A stretch of 36,751 nt of DNA from Lachnospiraceae bacterium (GTDB taxonomy: Bacteria > Bacillota > Clostridia > Lachnospirales > Lachnospiraceae): NCBI GenBank assembly GCA_014804285.1, contig JAAVAA010000097.1, forward strand, positions 1 to 36,751, given 5' to 3'. Position numbers and translations under genes: made by a program. The notes beneath the pieces are model-generated. The model saw only the letters and a program-made list of their open reading frames with translations, ran no database searches and had not been told where the DNA came from. Below are positions 217 through 26,182 of this stretch, one piece after another; within the stretch, counting starts at the first letter, position 1, and the number at the start of each line of letters is the position of its first letter.

Positions 217-245
217 TTGACAAATAATTAACAATATGCTATTAT
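217..245 (+). promoter_or_regulatory. sigma-A promoter of hflKC
   Basis: TTGACA (217-222), a 17-base spacer and TATTAT (240-245) form a near-consensus promoter. Transcription should start near 252, downstream of the first codon of the long ORF in the track (236). That ORF start therefore cannot be used, and the transcript has a leader of about 190 bases. Confidence 0.85.
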
Positions 246-257
246 CATCTCAACAGA

Positions 258-358
258 TAAAAGGGAGTAGCTTATATCCCATAAGAAGGATATACTTGAA
301 ACGTCAGGACGATGGAAACATCCGTTTCGAGTCAGGTGGAACTGTAGCAAGACTTTTA
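258..358 (+). promoter_or_regulatory. yybP-ykoY (Mn2+) riboswitch aptamer
   Basis: The leader carries the two signature halves of the yybP-ykoY family: AAAAGGGAGTAGC at the 5' side (259-271) and GTAGCAAGACTTTT at the 3' side (344-357). Between them is a long arm with outer stem GAAACG/CGTTTC and inner GATG-GAAA-CATC. Pairing of the 5' AAAAG with the 3' CTTTT gives the basal helix. This family senses Mn2+ and usually controls manganese exporters or other membrane proteins. Here the next gene is hflK. The identification is by motif and layout from memory, not a covariance search. Confidence 0.8.
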
Positions 359-393
359 TCGCAGCGTAAATGCCGCGATAAAGGTCTTTTTTT
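351..393 (+). terminator. intrinsic terminator of the Mn2+ riboswitch
   Basis: GACTTTTATCGC (351-362) pairs with GCGATAAAGGTC (375-386) in a 12-bp stem with one G-U pair, followed by a run of T (387-393). The 5' strand of this stem (351-357) is the same segment that closes the riboswitch basal helix, so the two folds exclude each other. Metal binding would stabilise the aptamer and let transcription continue, making it an ON switch. That direction is inferred from the overlap and from the known family mechanism. Confidence 0.85.
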
Positions 394-439
394 AAACCTT
401 GTAAACGGTATTTACAGGAAAACAAAAGGAGGGCATGTT

Positions 440-1519
440 ATGTTAGGAAAGAAAAAAAGCAATGTTTATCAACAGAAGGAGCCGGGGCAGGTTGGTGCGA
501 AATTGGGGAAAACGGCAGGCATCATTGTAGGTATATTTGCGGTGGTTTATCTGCTGGCAGGAAGTGTATATTCCCTGAAGGAAAATGAATATGCGGTAGT
601 CAGTACCTTTGGGGTACCGTCGATTGTGGAGGAGTCGGGCATTCACTTGAAGATTCCTTATATACAAAGACTTCATAAGGTCCCCAAGACCATTAATGGT
701 TTCCCTATCGGATATCGGACAAACAGCGACGAATCGGTGGATGCGGAGTCCTTTATGATTACAAGAGATTACAATTTTGTGAATGTGGACTTTTATGTGG
801 AGTACCGGGTAACGGATCCTGTCAAATACCTGTATTCATCGGAGAGCCCGATTGATGTTTTGAAGATGCTTACCCAGAGCTATATCAGGGACACCATTGG
901 TCTGTATGACGTGGACAGCGTGATCACTACCGGAAAGAACGAGATACAGGCATCGATCAAGGAAAAGATTATCGGACGTTTGGAGAAGGAAGATATTGGT
1001 ATCCAGCTTGTGAACATCACGATACAGGATGCGGAGCCGCCTACTCAGGAAGTGATCAATGCTTTTAAGAATGTGGAGAATGCAAAGCAGGGAAAGGAAA
1101 CTTCCATTAATAAGGCAAATCAAAAGAGGAATGAGGATATTCCTGCTGCCAGAGCATTAGCCGATGAAACGGTTAAGACTGCGCAGGCGCAGGCCGAGGA
1201 GCGTGTGAATGAAGCGAAAGGACAGGTTGCAAGGTTAAATGAGCTTTATGCTGAGTATCAAAAGTATCCGCTGATTACCAAGCAGAGAATGTTTTATGAG
1301 ACTATGGAAGAGATTTTGCCGGATATGAAGGTAATTATTGAAAAAAGTGATGGAAGCACTCAGACCATGCTGCCCTTGGAGTCCTTTACGGGGGGTTCAG
1401 ACAATGCCGTAACTTCAAACAATTCGACAGGTGCAGGACTTTGGAGTACGACAGGAACGGATAGCAGGCAGAATACAGTAGATTCCGAACAGGAAGCTGC
1501 TTCGGAAGATGAAAATTAA
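440..1519 (+). CDS. hflK: HflK-like SPFH/band 7 membrane protein
   Basis: A protein of 359 residues of the stomatin/prohibitin/HflK family. A lysine-rich N-terminus is followed by one membrane helix (about residues 26-46) and the band-7 domain starting at KENEYAVV. An Ala/Glu/Lys-rich coiled coil (about 220-290) and a Ser/Thr/Asn-rich low-complexity tail follow. In bacteria HflK and HflC form a hetero-oligomeric cage in the membrane around the FtsH protease and modulate its access to substrates. The start at 440 has AGGAGG seven bases upstream (427-432) and follows the promoter and terminator; the track start at 236 lies upstream of the predicted transcript. hflC follows after 24 bases. Expression should depend on read-through of the Mn2+-responsive leader. 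Confidence 0.9.
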   Translation: MLGKKKSNVYQQKEPGQVGAKLGKTAGIIVGIFAVVYLLAGSVYSLKENEYAVVSTFGVPSIVEESGIHLKIPYIQRLHKVPKTINGFPIGYRTNSDESVDAESFMITRDYNFVNVDFYVEYRVTDPVKYLYSSESPIDVLKMLTQSYIRDTIGLYDVDSVITTGKNEIQASIKEKIIGRLEKEDIGIQLVNITIQDAEPPTQEVINAFKNVENAKQGKETSINKANQKRNEDIPAARALADETVKTAQAQAEERVNEAKGQVARLNELYAEYQKYPLITKQRMFYETMEEILPDMKVIIEKSDGSTQTMLPLESFTGGSDNAVTSNNSTGAGLWSTTGTDSRQNTVDSEQEAASEDEN

Positions 1520-2560: not shown

Positions 2561-3745
2561 ATGGCAAAGAAAGTAGTTTTAGCCGGTGCATGCCGTACTG
2601 CAATCGGTACCATGGGCGGCTCACTCAGCACAACACCTGCCGCTGAGCTTGGTGCAATTGTTATCAAGGAGGCTTTAAACAGAGCAGGAGTTGCTCCCGA
2701 AGCAGTAGATCAGGTATACATGGGATGCGTTATCCAGGCCGGTCTTGGACAGAACGTAGCACGTCAGGCATCCATCAAAGCGGGATTACCGATTGAAGTA
2801 CCTGCAGTTACCATGAACGTAGTCTGCGGTTCCGGTCTTAACTGTGTAAACCAGGCAGCGCAGATGATTATGGCAGGGGATGCTGATATCGTTGTAGCAG
2901 GCGGTATGGAAAATATGTCCATGGCTCCCTACGCAGTTCCTCAGGGACGTTACGGATACAGAATGAACAATGGTGTTTTAGTAGATACCATGATCAAGGA
3001 TGCTCTCTGGGATGCATTCAATGATTACCACATGATTACTACAGCAGACAATATCTGCAGGGAATGGGGTCTTACCAGAGAAGAGCTGGACGAGTTCGCA
3101 TTAAAGAGCCAGCAGAAAGCAGAAGCAGCTCAGAAGTCCGGCGCATTTGATGCAGAGATCGTACCGGTTATGGTTAAGAAGAAAAAAGAAATGGTTGAGT
3201 TTAAGGTGGATGAAGGTCCTCGTGCAGGTTCTACTATTGAAGGTCTTGCAAAGCTTCGTCCTATTAATCCCGACGGATTTGTTACCGCAGGAAATGCATC
3301 CGGCATCAATGACGGTGCAGCGGCAATCGTAGTGATGAGCGAAGAGAAGGCGAAAGAACTGGGCGTTAAGCCTATGGCAACCTTTGTGGCTGGAGCGCTT
3401 GCAGGCGTACGTCCTGAGGTTATGGGTATCGGTCCTGTTGCATCTACCAAGAAGGTTCTTGCTAAGACAGGTATGAAGATTGAAGACTTTGATATCATAG
3501 AGGCAAACGAAGCATTTGCAGCACAGTCCGTAGCAGTCGGCAAGGATCTTGGAATTGATGTTGATAAGCAGCTCAATCCTAACGGCGGCGCTATTGCACT
3601 TGGACACCCTGTAGGAGCTTCCGGATGCCGAATCCTTGTAACCCTGCTTCATGAGATGCAGGCAAAGGGAGCTAAGACAGGTCTTGCTACCCTGTGTATC
3701 GGTGGCGGCATGGGCTGCTCCACGATCGTTAAAATTGAGGATTAG
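2561..3745 (+). CDS. thl: acetyl-CoA acetyltransferase (thiolase)
   Basis: A protein of 394 residues, the normal length of biosynthetic thiolases. It condenses two acetyl-CoA to acetoacetyl-CoA, the first step of butyrate formation. The nucleophilic Cys89 is in VVCGSGLN, the NEAFAAQ segment follows, His349 is in GHPVGASG, and the second Cys (379) is in CIGGGMGCS; all are in the expected places. GGAGG lies nine bases upstream of the ATG. It is the first gene of thl-crt-hbd-bcd-etfB-etfA. Codon use looks highly optimised compared with the accessory genes further on. The symbol thlA or atoB is used in some genomes. Confidence 0.95.
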
Positions 3746-3753
3746 TTAACAGA

Positions 3754-3861
3754 TAGTGAACGACATGATGTCGTTCACTATAACATGATAAGCAGGCTTA
3801 AATTTTTAGGTCTGCTTATCCGAATGTCTGGGAATAGTTAACGAGCGCCGGGAAGTGGCGC
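3754..3861 (+). other. three tandem hairpins between thl and crt
   Basis: A perfect 12-bp stem with a three-base loop (3754-3780) is followed by GATAAGCAG/CTGCTTATC (3787-3820) and GCGCC/GGCGC (3845-3861). None is followed by a T run, so they are not ordinary terminators. They could protect the thl 3' end, act as a processing site or lower read-through, setting the ratio of thiolase to the later enzymes. That function is inferred. Confidence 0.6.
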
Positions 3862-3876
3862 AGAAAAGAGGTTAAA

Positions 3877-4662
3877 ATGGAATTTATCGTATACGAGCAG
3901 AAAGGTACATACGGCATTATCACCATCAGCCGTGAAAAGGCGCTGAATGCATTGAACTCACAGGTTCTTGAAGAACTGGACAAAACACTGGATGAGGTAA
4001 ATCTTGACGAAGTAAGATGTCTGATCTTAACAGGCGCAGGGCAGAAGTCTTTTGTAGCCGGCGCAGATATCGGCGAGATGAGCACACTGACCAAAGCAGA
4101 AGGCGAAGCTTTTGGAAAGAAGGGAAATGATGTGTTCCGCAAGCTGGAAACTTTCCCCATTCCCGTTATTGCAGCAATCAATGGATTTGCATTAGGCGGC
4201 GGCTGTGAGATTTCCATGAGTTGTGATATCCGTATCTGTTCCGATAACGCGGTATTTGGACAGCCGGAGGTTGGTCTTGGAATTACTCCCGGCTTTGGCG
4301 GCACACAGAGACTGGCACGTCTTGTAGGTGCAGGCATGGCAAAGCAGATGATTTACACAGCTAGAAATATCAAGGCTGACGAGGCATTCAGGATTGGTCT
4401 TGTAAACGCTGTATATACTCAGGAAGAGTTGATGCCTGCAGCAGAAAAGATGGCGGCTGGTATTGCAAAGAACGCTCCTATTGCTGTAAGGAACTGCAAG
4501 AAGGCAATCAATGAAGGACTGGATGTTGATATGGATCAGGCAATTGTGATTGAAGAGAAGCTTTTTGGCGATTGCTTTGAGACAGAAGATCAGAAATACG
4601 GCATGGCATTTTTCCTTGACAAAAATAAAGAAAAAGTAAAAGAGCCTTTTAAGAACTGCTAG
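3877..4662 (+). CDS. crt: 3-hydroxybutyryl-CoA dehydratase (crotonase)
   Basis: A 261-residue enoyl-CoA hydratase/isomerase family protein, the typical length. It removes water from (S)-3-hydroxybutyryl-CoA to give crotonyl-CoA. The oxyanion-hole segments AGADIGEM (61-68) and GFALGGGCE (103-111) and the two catalytic glutamates Glu111 and Glu131 (in GQPEVGLGITPG) are all present. Third step of the pathway although second in the operon. AGAGG precedes the ATG at close spacing. Confidence 0.95.
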   Translation: MEFIVYEQKGTYGIITISREKALNALNSQVLEELDKTLDEVNLDEVRCLILTGAGQKSFVAGADIGEMSTLTKAEGEAFGKKGNDVFRKLETFPIPVIAAINGFALGGGCEISMSCDIRICSDNAVFGQPEVGLGITPGFGGTQRLARLVGAGMAKQMIYTARNIKADEAFRIGLVNAVYTQEELMPAAEKMAAGIAKNAPIAVRNCKKAINEGLDVDMDQAIVIEEKLFGDCFETEDQKYGMAFFLDKNKEKVKEPFKNC

Positions 4663-4673
4663 TTGATTTTACT

Positions 4674-4702
4674 ACTGCCAAAAGGCATCATCATTTGGCA
4701 GT
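4674..4702 (+). other. hairpin between crt and hbd
   Basis: ACTGCCAAA (4674-4682) and TTTGGCAGT (4694-4702) form a perfect 9-bp stem with an 11-base loop just after the crt stop. There is no T run. It resembles the hairpins after thl and probably acts on mRNA stability rather than termination. Confidence 0.5.
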
Positions 4703-4737
4703 GAAAAATACAAACAAAAATAATAGGAGGAATGAAA

Positions 4738-5580
4738 ATGAAAGTAGGTATTATTGGTGCTGGTACCATGGGTGCCGGAATCGCACAGGCTTTTGCAATG
4801 ACAGATGGTTATGAAGTTTGTCTCTGCGATATCAAGATGGAGTTCGCTGAGGGCGGAAAAGCAAGAATTCAGAAGAACATGAACTTCCTGGTAAGCAAGG
4901 AGAAAATCACACAGGAAAAAGCAGACGAGATCATGGCTAAGATTACCTGTGGTTTAAAGGATATTTGTACAGACTGTGACCTGATCGTGGAGGTTGCTCC
5001 TGAGAACATGAAGATTAAGAAGGATACCTTTAAGGAGCTTATGGATATTGTTAAGCCTGACTGCATGTTCGCATCCAACACTTCTTCTCTTTCTATCACA
5101 GAGATCGGTGCCGGCCTTGACAGACCTATGATCGGTATGCATTTCTTCAATCCGGCAGACAGAATGAAGCTGGTAGAAGTAATTGCAGGTGAGAATACAC
5201 CGGATGATATGGTAGAAAAAATCAAAGCAATCGCAACAGAGATCGGCAAGACACCTGTACAGGTTAAGGAAGCTCCCGGCTTTGTTGTAAATAGAATTCT
5301 GATCCCGATGATCAACGAAGCAATCGGTATCTATGCTGATGGTATTGCAAGCGTAGCTGATATTGATGAAGCTATGAAGCTTGGTGCAAGCCATCCCATG
5401 GGACCTCTGGCTCTTGGTGATCTGGTTGGTCTGGATATCGTGCTTGCTATCATGGAAGTGCTTCAGAGCGAGACAGGCGATCCCAAGTATCGTCCTCATC
5501 CCCTTCTTCGCAAGATGGTCCGCGCAGGCAAGCTTGGTAAGAAGACTGGCGTAGGTTTCTATGATTATTCAAAGAAATAA
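4738..5580 (+). CDS. hbd: 3-hydroxybutyryl-CoA dehydrogenase
   Basis: Reduces acetoacetyl-CoA to (S)-3-hydroxybutyryl-CoA with NAD(P)H. From the start chosen here it has 280 residues. The N-terminal Rossmann motif is GAGTMGAG (8-15). The catalytic region contains [11 protein letters not shown] (Ser117), GMHFFNPA (His135), LVEVI (Glu147) and PGFVVNRIL with the conserved Asn; the C-terminal helical domain ends [10 protein letters not shown]. The track starts at 4732, but AGGAGG (4725-4730) would be only one base away from that codon. The second ATG at 4738 has seven-base spacing and gives the normal MKVGIIGAG start. Confidence 0.95.
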
Positions 5581-5627
5581 TTGTTTGTAGTAAATAATAT
5601 AGCATGACAAATGGAGGAAGTAATATC

Positions 5628-6782
5628 ATGGATTTTATGTTAACCAAACAACATGAAATGGCTAGAACTCTTTTTAAAGAGTTCGCAGAAAAAGAAGTAA
5701 AGCCTCTGGCACAGGAAGTCGATGAGACTGAAGTTTTCCCCAGAGGAACTGTTGAAAAGATGGCAAAAGCCGGTTTTCTTGGAATTCCTGTTCCCAAGGA
5801 GTACGGCGGACAGGGATGCGATCCTTTAACCTACGCTATGTGTGTTGAGGAGCTTTCCAAGGTTTGCGGTACCACAGGCGTTATCGTTTCTGCACATACA
5901 TCACTTTGCTGTGACCCGATCATGACATATGGAACCGAAGAGCAGAAGCAGAAATACTTAGTACCTCTTGCAAAGGGCGAGAAGCTGGGCGCATTTGGTC
6001 TTACCGAGCCCGGTGCTGGTACAGACGCACAGGGACAGCAGACTAAGGCTGTTCTGGATGGAGATGAGTGGGTACTTAACGGATCCAAGATCTTTATCAC
6101 AAACGGTAAGGAAGCTGATGTTTATGTTATTTTCGCAGTTACAAGTGTTGTAACGGATGCAAAGGGCAGAAGCAAAAAGATGATCTCCGCATTTATCGTT
6201 GAGAAGGGAACACCCGGCTTTACCTTTGGTACAAAGGAAAAGAAAATGGGTATCCGCGGCTCATCTACTTATGAGCTGATCTTTACAGACTGCCGTATCC
6301 CGAAAGAGAACCTTTTGGGACAGGAAGGCAAGGGCTTTGGTATCGCTATGCATACTCTTGACGGCGGACGTATCGGTATCGCTGCACAGGCTCTCGGTAT
6401 TGCAGAAGGCGCTTTAGACAGAACTGTTGAGTACGTAAAAGAGAGAAAGCAGTTCGGAAGAGCCATCGGCGCATTCCAGAATACACAGTTCCAGCTTGCA
6501 GATATGGCAACCAAGGTTCAGGCTGCTCAGCTTATGGTATACCGCGCAGCAATGGCTAAGGCTACCCAGAAGGTTTACTCCGTAGAAGCAGCAATGGCTA
6601 AGCTGTACGCAGCAGAGGTTGCTATGGAAGTAACAACCAAGGCAGTTCAGCTCCATGGCGGATATGGCTACATCAGAGAGTACGACGTAGAGCGTATGAT
6701 GAGAGATGCCAAGATCACCGAGATCTACGAAGGAACATCCGAGGTTCAGAGGATGGTCATCTCCGGTGCATTGCTTAAGTAA
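5628..6782 (+). CDS. bcd: butyryl-CoA dehydrogenase
   Basis: An FAD-dependent short-chain acyl-CoA dehydrogenase of 384 residues that reduces crotonyl-CoA to butyryl-CoA. FAD/substrate loops GAFGLTEPGAGTD and IFITNGKEAD are present, and the catalytic base is Glu368 in IYEGTSEVQR, the position usual for the short-chain family. The track ORF begins eight codons earlier (5604), but GGAGGAAG (5613-5620) lies inside that extension at proper distance from ATG 5628, which gives the usual MDFMLT start. With EtfAB downstream it is expected to form the bifurcating complex that drives ferredoxin reduction with NADH. Confidence 0.95.
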   Translation: MDFMLTKQHEMARTLFKEFAEKEVKPLAQEVDETEVFPRGTVEKMAKAGFLGIPVPKEYGGQGCDPLTYAMCVEELSKVCGTTGVIVSAHTSLCCDPIMTYGTEEQKQKYLVPLAKGEKLGAFGLTEPGAGTDAQGQQTKAVLDGDEWVLNGSKIFITNGKEADVYVIFAVTSVVTDAKGRSKKMISAFIVEKGTPGFTFGTKEKKMGIRGSSTYELIFTDCRIPKENLLGQEGKGFGIAMHTLDGGRIGIAAQALGIAEGALDRTVEYVKERKQFGRAIGAFQNTQFQLADMATKVQAAQLMVYRAAMAKATQKVYSVEAAMAKLYAAEVAMEVTTKAVQLHGGYGYIREYDVERMMRDAKITEIYEGTSEVQRMVISGALLK

Positions 6783-6834
6783 TGCAAATCCGGTAACAGA
6801 AAATTAACAGATAATAAATAAGGAGAGAAATACA

Positions 6835-7617
6835 ATGAAAGTTGTTGTTTGTGTTAAACAGGTACCTGATACCAAGGGCGGCGTTAAGTTTAATCCCGAT
6901 GGTACTCTTGACAGAGGTGCAATGCTTACGATCATGAATCCTGATGACAAAGCAGGTCTTGAAGCAGCCCTTAGATTAAAAGATCAGTATGGAGCAGAAG
7001 TTACCGTAGTTACCATGGGTCTTCCTAAAGCAGAAGAAGTTCTGCGTGAGGCTATGGCTATGGGAGCTGACAAGGGAATCCTTGTTACAGACAGAGTACT
7101 GGGCGGAGCAGATACATGGGCAACCTCCCAGACACTGGCAGGCGCTATCCGTAATCTGGAATATGACCTGATCATTACAGGACGTCAGGCAATCGATGGT
7201 GATACCGCACAGGTTGGACCTCAGATTTCCGAGCATCTTGGAATACCGGTAATTTCTTATGCACAGAATATCAAGATTGATGGCGACAGCGTAATCGTTG
7301 AGCGTCAGTATGATGACAGATATCACGTATTAAAGGCTAAAATGCCCTGTCTGATCACAGCGCTTGCTGAGTTAAATGAGCCTCGTTATATGACTCCCGG
7401 CGGAATTTTCGATGCATACAATGCAGAGATCACAGTATGGGGAAGGGCTAATCTGGTTGATGTAGAAGACTCTAACTTAGGACTTAAGGGTTCACCTACC
7501 CAGATCGCAAAGGCTTCCGATAAGGTAAGAAAGGGTGCAGGCGAGAAGGTTACTCTTGATCCCGCTGAATCCGTTGATTACATTATCGATAAGTTAAAAG
7601 TAAAACACGTCATCTAA
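6835..7617 (+). CDS. etfB: electron transfer flavoprotein beta subunit
   Basis: A 260-residue EtfB. The N-terminus MKVVVCVKQVPDT and the segment GADKGILVTD are typical, and the later ITGRQAIDGDTAQVGPQ forms the nucleotide-binding region. Being next to bcd, it most likely belongs to the bifurcating Bcd-Etf group, where EtfB provides the site at which NADH is oxidised by an EtfB-proximal FAD; that role comes from the studied clostridial complexes. AAGGAGAG lies just before the ATG. etfA follows after 24 bases. Confidence 0.95.
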   Translation: MKVVVCVKQVPDTKGGVKFNPDGTLDRGAMLTIMNPDDKAGLEAALRLKDQYGAEVTVVTMGLPKAEEVLREAMAMGADKGILVTDRVLGGADTWATSQTLAGAIRNLEYDLIITGRQAIDGDTAQVGPQISEHLGIPVISYAQNIKIDGDSVIVERQYDDRYHVLKAKMPCLITALAELNEPRYMTPGGIFDAYNAEITVWGRANLVDVEDSNLGLKGSPTQIAKASDKVRKGAGEKVTLDPAESVDYIIDKLKVKHVI

Positions 7618-7641
7618 TAAAGATATTAATGGAGGTTCAAA

Positions 7642-8685
7642 ATGAATATTCAAGATTATAAGGGCGTATTTGTCTTCGCTCAGCAGGTTGATAATGAGCT
7701 TAGCGGAATTGCTTTGGAATTAGTCGGAAAAGGCAAAGACCTCGCTAAGGATTTAGGAACAGAAGTAACAGCAGTACTGGTTGGTTCAGGCGTTGGCGCT
7801 CTGACAGATACACTTGGAGAATACGGTGCTGATAAGGTTATCGTAGTAGATGACCCCGAATTAAAGGAATATAGAACAGAGCCTTATGCACATGCACTTT
7901 CATCTGTTATTAATGAGTTCAAGCCTGAGATTTTCCTGGTAGGAGCTACTGCAATTGGACGTGATTTAGGTCCCAGAGTATCCGCAAGAATTCATACAGG
8001 ACTTACAGCAGACTGTACACAGCTTGATATCGGTGATTTCCCGATCAACCCGGTTCCGGGCAAAGAGCAGCTTCATAATCAGCTCCTCATGACCCGTCCG
8101 GCTTTCGGCGGAAATACTATCGCAACCATTGCATGTCCGGAGTTCCGTCCTCAGATGGCAACTGTACGTCCCGGTGTTATGCAGAAAGCACCTAAGGAAG
8201 CTGGCAGAAAAGCAGAGGTTATTAATTACAATCCCGGCTTTACACCCAATGATAAGTATGTAGAAATCTTAGAGGTTGTTAAGGCTGTTTCAGACGTAGC
8301 TGATATTATGGATGCAAAGATTCTGGTATCCGGCGGACGTGGCGTAGGAAGCCCGGAGAACTTTAAGATTCTGGAAGATCTGGCAGAGGTACTTGGCGGT
8401 ACCGTAAGCTGCTCCCGTGCAGTTGTAGATGCAGGCTGGAAGCCCAAAGATCTGCAGGTAGGACAGACAGGTAAGACGGTACGTCCTAATGTATACTTTG
8501 CAATCGGTATCTCCGGTGCAATCCAGCATGTAGCAGGTATGGAAGAAGCTGATATCATCATTGCAATCAATAAGGATGAGACAGCGCCTATCTTTGAAGT
8601 AGCTGATTACGGACTTGTTGGCGATTTGAACAAGATCGTTCCTGCACTTACAGAGAAGCTGAAAGTTGAATTAGCTGAGAAATAA
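7642..8685 (+). CDS. etfA: electron transfer flavoprotein alpha subunit
   Basis: A 347-residue EtfA. The C-terminal FAD-binding domain has SGGRGVGSPENF, CSRAVVDAGW, QVGQTGKTVRPNVY and GISGAIQHVAGM in the usual order. No ferredoxin domain is fused at the N-terminus, unlike some longer clostridial EtfA proteins. It pairs with EtfB and shuttles electrons to Bcd. It is the last gene of the operon; a hexamer repeat and a strong terminator follow. GGAGG precedes the ATG with normal spacing. Confidence 0.95.
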   Translation: MNIQDYKGVFVFAQQVDNELSGIALELVGKGKDLAKDLGTEVTAVLVGSGVGALTDTLGEYGADKVIVVDDPELKEYRTEPYAHALSSVINEFKPEIFLVGATAIGRDLGPRVSARIHTGLTADCTQLDIGDFPINPVPGKEQLHNQLLMTRPAFGGNTIATIACPEFRPQMATVRPGVMQKAPKEAGRKAEVINYNPGFTPNDKYVEILEVVKAVSDVADIMDAKILVSGGRGVGSPENFKILEDLAEVLGGTVSCSRAVVDAGWKPKDLQVGQTGKTVRPNVYFAIGISGAIQHVAGMEEADIIIAINKDETAPIFEVADYGLVGDLNKIVPALTEKLKVELAEK

Positions 8686-25887: not shown

Positions 25888-26176
25888 TTAAAAAAGCCCT
25901 CCTCTCTGAAAATTTCTTTTCAGGGACGAGAGCCTTATGCTTCGTGTTACCACCCTAAATTCACTTAGACCTCACGGTATAAGCCTTATCAACTACGGAT
26001 GAGAAATGATTCATCGATAGTCTATCACTGTAACGGGTGCACCCGTCGTAGCCTTGGCAGATTTGCTTCGGTACGCAGCTCCGGGACCATTTTCGACAGT
26101 TCCTTCTGTGCCTGCTCTCACCAACGCAGACTCTCTGTGACGTATCTAACCATCTACTCTTCCCTTCATTGCCTTT
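25888..26176 (-). promoter_or_regulatory. T-box leader, tRNA-Met specific
   Basis: On the minus strand the leader contains AGGGTGGTAACACG (25956-25943), the T-box antiterminator sequence that pairs with the uncharged tRNA acceptor end. Upstream lies a long Stem I with the AGAGAGTCTG and GGTGAGAGCAGG landmarks. The specifier position before CCCGGAGCTGC reads ATG, a Met codon, matching the downstream gene. The terminator uses CTGAAAA-GAAA-TTTTCAG and the following GGAGGGC with a T6 run (25895-25890). Uncharged tRNA-Met should favour read-through. Confidence 0.93.
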
Positions 26177-26182
26177 CGCAGT

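Follow-up and report, generated by a model that had tools for sequence, protein, structure and literature searches.

The hflK-hflC operon of this Lachnospiraceae bacterium (assembly GCA_014804285.1, contig JAAVAA010000097.1, positions 1 to 36,751, the whole of which is called the window here) is, with a probability that we put at roughly 80%, under the control of a transcriptional yybP-ykoY Mn2+ ON riboswitch that induces HflKC. The sensor type is known already; the novelty lies in the kind of target and in its recurrence. The sequences themselves show the aptamer class, the mutual exclusion of P1 and terminator, the conservation of both and the recurrence of SPFH targets. The locus is laid out as follows.

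217–245, + strand: sigma-70-type promoter, TTGACA-17 nt-TATTAT with an extended -10 TG; 11/12 consensus bases, conserved in genus leaders.
254–363, + strand: yybP-ykoY (Mn2+ class) aptamer, four-way junction P1–P4; model R2 (see below) and covariation.
256–263, + strand: P1 switch helix, 5' strand, partner 353–360; structure and pair counts.
264–272, + strand: L1 5' strand GGAGUA and P1.2; A266 corresponds to L. lactis A10; invariant in 25 genus leaders (A10 role, PMC6754395).
273–294, + strand: hairpin P2; two-sided changes in the genus and exporter alignments.
295–331, + strand: P3 with internal loop L3 (303–310, GUCAGGAC); A306 is the A41 position; GUCA invariant in 25 genus leaders, two-sided changes in P3 (A41 role, PMC6754395).
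333–344, + strand: hairpin P4; structure and pair counts.
346–360, + strand: L1 3' strand (AAGA) and P1 3' strand (353–360), the latter common to the terminator.
350–393, + strand: intrinsic terminator, T-tract 387–393, exclusive with P1; -20.4 kcal/mol.
426–433, + strand: ribosome-binding site AAGGAGGG; direct reading of the sequence.
440–1519, + strand: hflK, 359 aa, SPFH protein; TIGR01933 209.9 bits versus cut-off 159.4; Band_7.
1544–2410, + strand: hflC, 288 aa, SPFH protein; TIGR01932 153.2 bits versus cut-off 134.4; Band_7.

A preliminary description of this DNA had placed a consensus promoter and an SPFH gene pair here, and both hold: the promoter has the bases, spacer and extended -10 element listed above, and the two adjacent genes, separated by a gap of 24 bases, exceed the cut-offs of the NCBIfam equivalog profiles for HflK (TIGR01933) and HflC (TIGR01932), each with an SPFH domain. 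If transcribed from this promoter, the leader extends ~190 nt ahead of hflK, and its fold has a z-score of -4.67, with 0 of 200 shuffles equally stable. An in-frame open reading frame (236–1519) spans the leader and was rejected as the start of hflK, since homology and the ribosome-binding site place the start at 440; an open frame of comparable length (430 codons) was found elsewhere in the closest relative only. Within the genus the promoter spacer AATAATTAACAATATG hardly varies, whereas the 30 bases upstream of the promoter do, and a near-palindrome at the promoter (TTGnnAATTAATTnnCAA) suggests an operator. The promoter pattern occurs a single time in the source genome, a similar promoter precedes a flotillin leader (L094), and a BLAST search of the leader against plasmids gave no match. 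Elsewhere in the window, a butyrate-type gene set (thiolase, crotonase, 3-hydroxyacyl-CoA dehydrogenase, acyl-CoA dehydrogenase, EtfB and EtfA, assigned by eye from the ORF list) lies directly downstream of hflKC at 2561–8685, and a T-box leader (RF00230, 102.6 bits) is on the minus strand at 25919–26178.

The four-way junction P1–P4 is backed by covariation. Among 25 hflK leaders of the genus, 10 pairs show two-sided changes, P1, P2 and P3 all have compensatory changes, and the covariation score lies above that of all 500 shuffles, with slid controls far lower; in 60 exporter leaders, 29 of the 33 pairs show two-sided changes and 94% are paired, in an alignment that was fitted to the structure. 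In L. lactis, L3 reads UCA41AU43UC, where A41 is invariable and contacts Mn2+ through its N7, and A10 of L1 makes a cross-helix contact (PMC6754395). The window has the same core, an L1 of GGAGUA with an extruded A and an L3 with the invariable Mn2+-contacting A, and both corresponding bases, A266 and A306, are invariant in the 25 genus leaders. A pattern scan of the window that used a gap of 40–70, shorter than the real distance, found no match.

To place the element in its class we used two covariance models. R1 was built from the alignment of the 25 genus hflK leaders; among 392 genomes from the order, it detected the element in 129. The first gene after its 153 sites, with target classes taken from Pfam on representatives, encodes a P-type cation ATPase (52), a CaCA antiporter (33), OadB (15), an SPFH protein (14), GDT1/UPF0016 (9), CitMHS (5), a Na/Pi cotransporter (4) or MntP (1), the remainder being others. 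R2 was trained solely on 60 leaders from genes for P-type ATPases, GDT1 and MntP and includes no hflK leader; its training leaders were gathered with R1 and therefore lean towards hflK-like elements, yet they precede exporter genes. R2 recognises the window with 81.5 bits (E 1.5e-17), as well as E. coli mntP (47.0 bits, 6.9e-9) and alx (30.6 bits, 9.4e-5), so that the leader matches leaders of known targets in sequence and structure, and the yybP-ykoY aptamer of the preliminary description is borne out by both R2 and covariation. In a sample of the phylum, R2 matches occur in 109 of 300 genomes, and at 77 sites the downstream gene was usable: 20 P-type, 13 GDT1, 12 CaCA, 4 OadB and 2 MntP genes, with the other 26 unassigned (~17 of them TerC-like by eye). 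These targets are the known regulon of the Mn2+ class.

Several sites of the element have other surroundings. A stand-alone OadB (Na+-pumping decarboxylase beta subunit) gene stands behind the riboswitch in 15 genomes (L073-L078, L080, L090, L092, L100, L119, L138, L145, L175 and L178), and OadB, Na/Pi cotransporter and CitMHS transporter targets are not obvious Mn2+ genes. At L082, L083 and L085 the riboswitch precedes an uncharacterised 108-residue protein, followed at L082 by a chemoreceptor-like gene. The only other R2 site in the source genome (L302, G000:C50:71620–71719, minus strand) lies before a CaCA antiporter; its L3 is without the GUCA motif, so that the site may be degenerate or sense something else.

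The preliminary description had treated the lack of an Rfam RF00080 match as grounds for giving up the riboswitch, and RF00080 indeed gives no match to the window, either at its gathering score or at E<=10. This failure is uninformative because RF00080 also fails the validated E. coli mntP switch (41.6 bits, below its own cut-off of 45). The model likewise yields no match to E. coli alx at E<=0.1 and nothing in a scan of the source genome, and its cut-off is passed in just 2 of 14 control genomes. As its alignment with mntP reveals, RF00080 has a consensus in which L3 is long (UCAACAUACU) and P1 pairs are absent, and it therefore readily misses members whose L3 is short. The RF00080 gathering score is a limit of the model and not a defining feature of the yybP-ykoY class, and the current model misses a large short-L3 branch. 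Four of the R1 sites are seen independently by RF00080 below threshold, L001 (GDT1), L002 (CaCA), L003 (OadB) and L004 (MntP). The flotillin leader at L094:1471–1593 (minus strand) matches RF02617 (SSRC10, a Streptococcus sRNA) with 43.2 bits, below the cut-off of 56, and SSRC10 may itself be a yybP-ykoY leader.

The proposed direction of control follows from the overlap between aptamer and terminator. The 5' arm of the terminator (350–393) takes up the P1 3' strand (353–360) in full, 8 of 8 bases, and in each of the 25 genus leaders 7–8 of these pair anew within a long terminator stem that is followed by a U-run. P1 is thus exclusive with the expression platform throughout the genus set, and the earlier proposal that the terminator 5' strand is also the closing strand of the aptamer applies to all of these leaders. 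A simple terminator scan missed the terminator at 350–393, but folds do show it. Since the P1 3' strand lies in the terminator 5' arm, a P1 stabilised by ligand would mean read-through, and the L. lactis ON switch has the same arrangement of P1 versus terminator (PMC9190785). Without ligand, the P1 3' strand would join the terminator and transcription would stop before hflK. At high intracellular Mn2+, the ion would bind between L1 and L3 at a site built around A306, and the two legs would dock; the docked legs would hold P1 (256–263/353–360), the terminator could not form, and HflK and HflC would be made. We infer that Mn2+ is the ligand, that the switch acts as ON in vivo, and what it is for.

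A survey of hflKC leaders, which the preliminary description had proposed, shows that the pairing of leader and operon is conserved. The gene hflK is found in 30 of 38 genus genomes, with the leader <=600 nt upstream at 25 of the 30 loci and, in one more genus genome (G017), at a contig end. Beyond the genus, the element precedes hflK in eight further Lachnospiraceae genera: g22 (L093), g23 (L171, L185), g79 (L129/L339), g209 (L334), g296 (L336), g206 (L341), g291 (L343) and g321 (L353). It lies upstream of 25 of 80 named HflK loci, including those of Parablautia intestinalis, P. muri, an Acetatifactor and Lachnospiraceae 10-1. In g83, g18 and g44, and also in g125 and g8 of another family, the element precedes flotillin genes (flotillin-type SPFH sites L094, L125, L156, L177, L179, L182, L220 and L323, in five genera and two families), and in a single case (g130) it precedes a prohibitin-like gene. 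On a tree of HflK with 64 rows, at least 12 changes of the element label are required, and well-supported branches force 5 of these; the element was therefore gained and/or lost repeatedly. No recognised SPFH gene was seen among the 77 classified sites of the phylum-wide sample; the comparison of 14 SPFH targets among 131 sites versus 0 among 77 (p = 0.0025) is indicative only, as different models were used per set and R1 was trained on hflK leaders. Because several hflK genes are without the element, some of them within the genus, the link between riboswitch and hflK is not obligatory, and these genes count against the Mn2+ reading. One hflK locus (L013, G049:C107) has only the aptamer 3' end and the terminator left, and an unrelated gene upstream is joined to this remnant, through either a deletion or a mis-assembly of the MAG. 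In one relative (L232 and L086) a second riboswitch, this one with a CaCA antiporter, comes after hflKC. We lean towards a broader view, with somewhat less assurance than for the operon itself, in which metal-sensing yybP-ykoY RNAs of Lachnospiraceae and one related family have repeatedly come to lie ahead of SPFH scaffolds (HflKC, flotillin, prohibitin-like), and the scaffolding of membrane domains, together with FtsH-linked proteolysis, would regularly form part of Mn2+ (or divalent metal) homeostasis, replacing exporters or standing beside them.

The main doubt concerns the exact ligand, and yybP variants may sense other divalent ions. L3 positions 42–44 are GGA in the window versus AUU in L. 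lactis, and the U-turn base differs, so that affinity or ion choice could have changed. If the leader were a yybP-ykoY variant for Ca2+ or another divalent ion, or one that discriminates less among metals, HflKC would share a Ca2+ or general cation stress regulon with the Na+/Ca2+-type transporters. Such a change is in keeping with the many sister sites before CaCA antiporters, P-type cation ATPases, OadB, Na/Pi and CitMHS genes, with the variability of L3 positions 42–44, and with a review that expects yybP variants of changed ligand (PMC7266159). We nevertheless regard it as unlikely, given that the Mn2+-contacting A is retained, that the L. lactis switch, likewise short in L3, is specific for Mn2+ (PMC6754395, PMC9190785), and that one P-type leader carries the L. 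lactis-like GUCAAUUC. The GGAC of the window's L3 is found also in a single P-type leader, a single CaCA leader, three CitMHS leaders and two flotillin leaders, and is therefore not private to hflK.

A decayed or constitutive leader, in which the terminator works, the aptamer is blind to metal and hflKC is merely attenuated, would fit the loss of the element in some relatives and the L013 locus that keeps just the 3' part with the terminator; with P1–P4 and both loops kept under covariation, and a core that is invariant across 25 diverged leaders, its probability is very small. Smaller still is the chance that the leader belongs to another riboswitch class, such as Na+-I (DUF1646), and only happens to resemble yybP-ykoY. 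The absent RF00080 match and the Na+-linked targets (OadB, Na/Pi, Na_Ca_ex) would agree with this, and oxaloacetate decarboxylase genes are also among the Na+-I targets in the literature. However, positions 150–560 fit none of 4227 Rfam families at E<=10 beyond chance matches, with no match to Na+-I (DUF1646), whose model is presumed to be among them; moreover, R2 recognises validated Mn2+ switches, and the L1 and L3 sequences match the Mn2+ aptamer core. A Na+ riboswitch, a reading prompted by the OadB, Na_Ca_ex and Na/Pi targets, was rejected on the Rfam scan and the R2 match.

For a Mn2+ switch ahead of hflKC, the purpose can be sought in the links between manganese and FtsH. In B. subtilis, FtsH, FloT and FloA copurify with the Mn exporters MeeF and MeeY, and FtsH is essential in cells without MeeF/MeeY (PMC10550928), while at high Mn2+ and low Mg2+ YqgP cleaves MgtE and presents it to FtsH (PMC7231995). 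In E. coli, an HflKC cage encloses FtsH, and the work on HflKC concerns respiration rather than Mn, which counts against the Mn2+ reading (PMC12005517). The source genome has two FtsH-family genes. The switch probably serves to build HflKC around FtsH here as well, and HflKC-FtsH would then handle membrane proteins that are mis-metalated or stalled at the translocon in Mn stress, alongside Mn/Ca efflux. The most economical reading would be that Mn2+ excess calls for membrane proteolysis organised by SPFH proteins, which is built via a Mn2+ RNA sensor; by analogy, such a Mn2+ response with FtsH quality control is consistent with the links of Mn exporter, FtsH and flotillin in B. subtilis. Our results suggest that high manganese turns on the quality control of membrane proteins in this gut bacterium and many relatives. 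A 2025 paper on HflKC (PMC12005517) treats the physiological role of this pair, like that of most SPFH proteins in bacteria, as a largely open question. A metal riboswitch that turns up repeatedly ahead of SPFH genes points to a signal that induces them, which offers a direct test of the purpose of HflKC and flotillins and extends Mn2+ riboswitch regulons beyond transporters.

In line with the view of the preliminary description that this arrangement is undescribed, a full-text literature search, in which subscription literature was thinly covered and an old supplementary-table entry is possible, found no HflK, SPFH or flotillin gene as a yybP-ykoY target. The nearest known system is the yoaB Mn2+ riboswitch of L. 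lactis (crystal structure 4Y1I), which shares with the window a short L3 with a UCA core and the four-way junction; its P1.1 is exclusive with the terminator and Mn2+ turns it ON (PMC6754395, PMC9190785), and the window is likewise exclusive in P1 and would by inference be ON, but has the differing L3 bases and hflK-hflC instead of a transporter as its target. The E. coli mntP and alx Mn2+ riboswitches are found, like the window, by the exporter-trained R2, whereas their targets are Mn2+ exporters, the L3 of mntP is longer, and mntP is regulated translationally according to the literature, while the window has a transcription terminator. The HflKC-FtsH complex of E. coli has counterparts in the source genome in the form of HflK/HflC homologues and FtsH genes, and unlike our proposal for the window no Mn2+ control of hflKC is described for it in PMC12005517. 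In B. subtilis, a Mn exporter (MeeY, YkoY), FtsH and an SPFH scaffold (flotillin) meet physically and genetically, and the Mn riboswitch of meeY controls the exporter (PMC10550928), whereas in the window the riboswitch precedes the scaffold itself.
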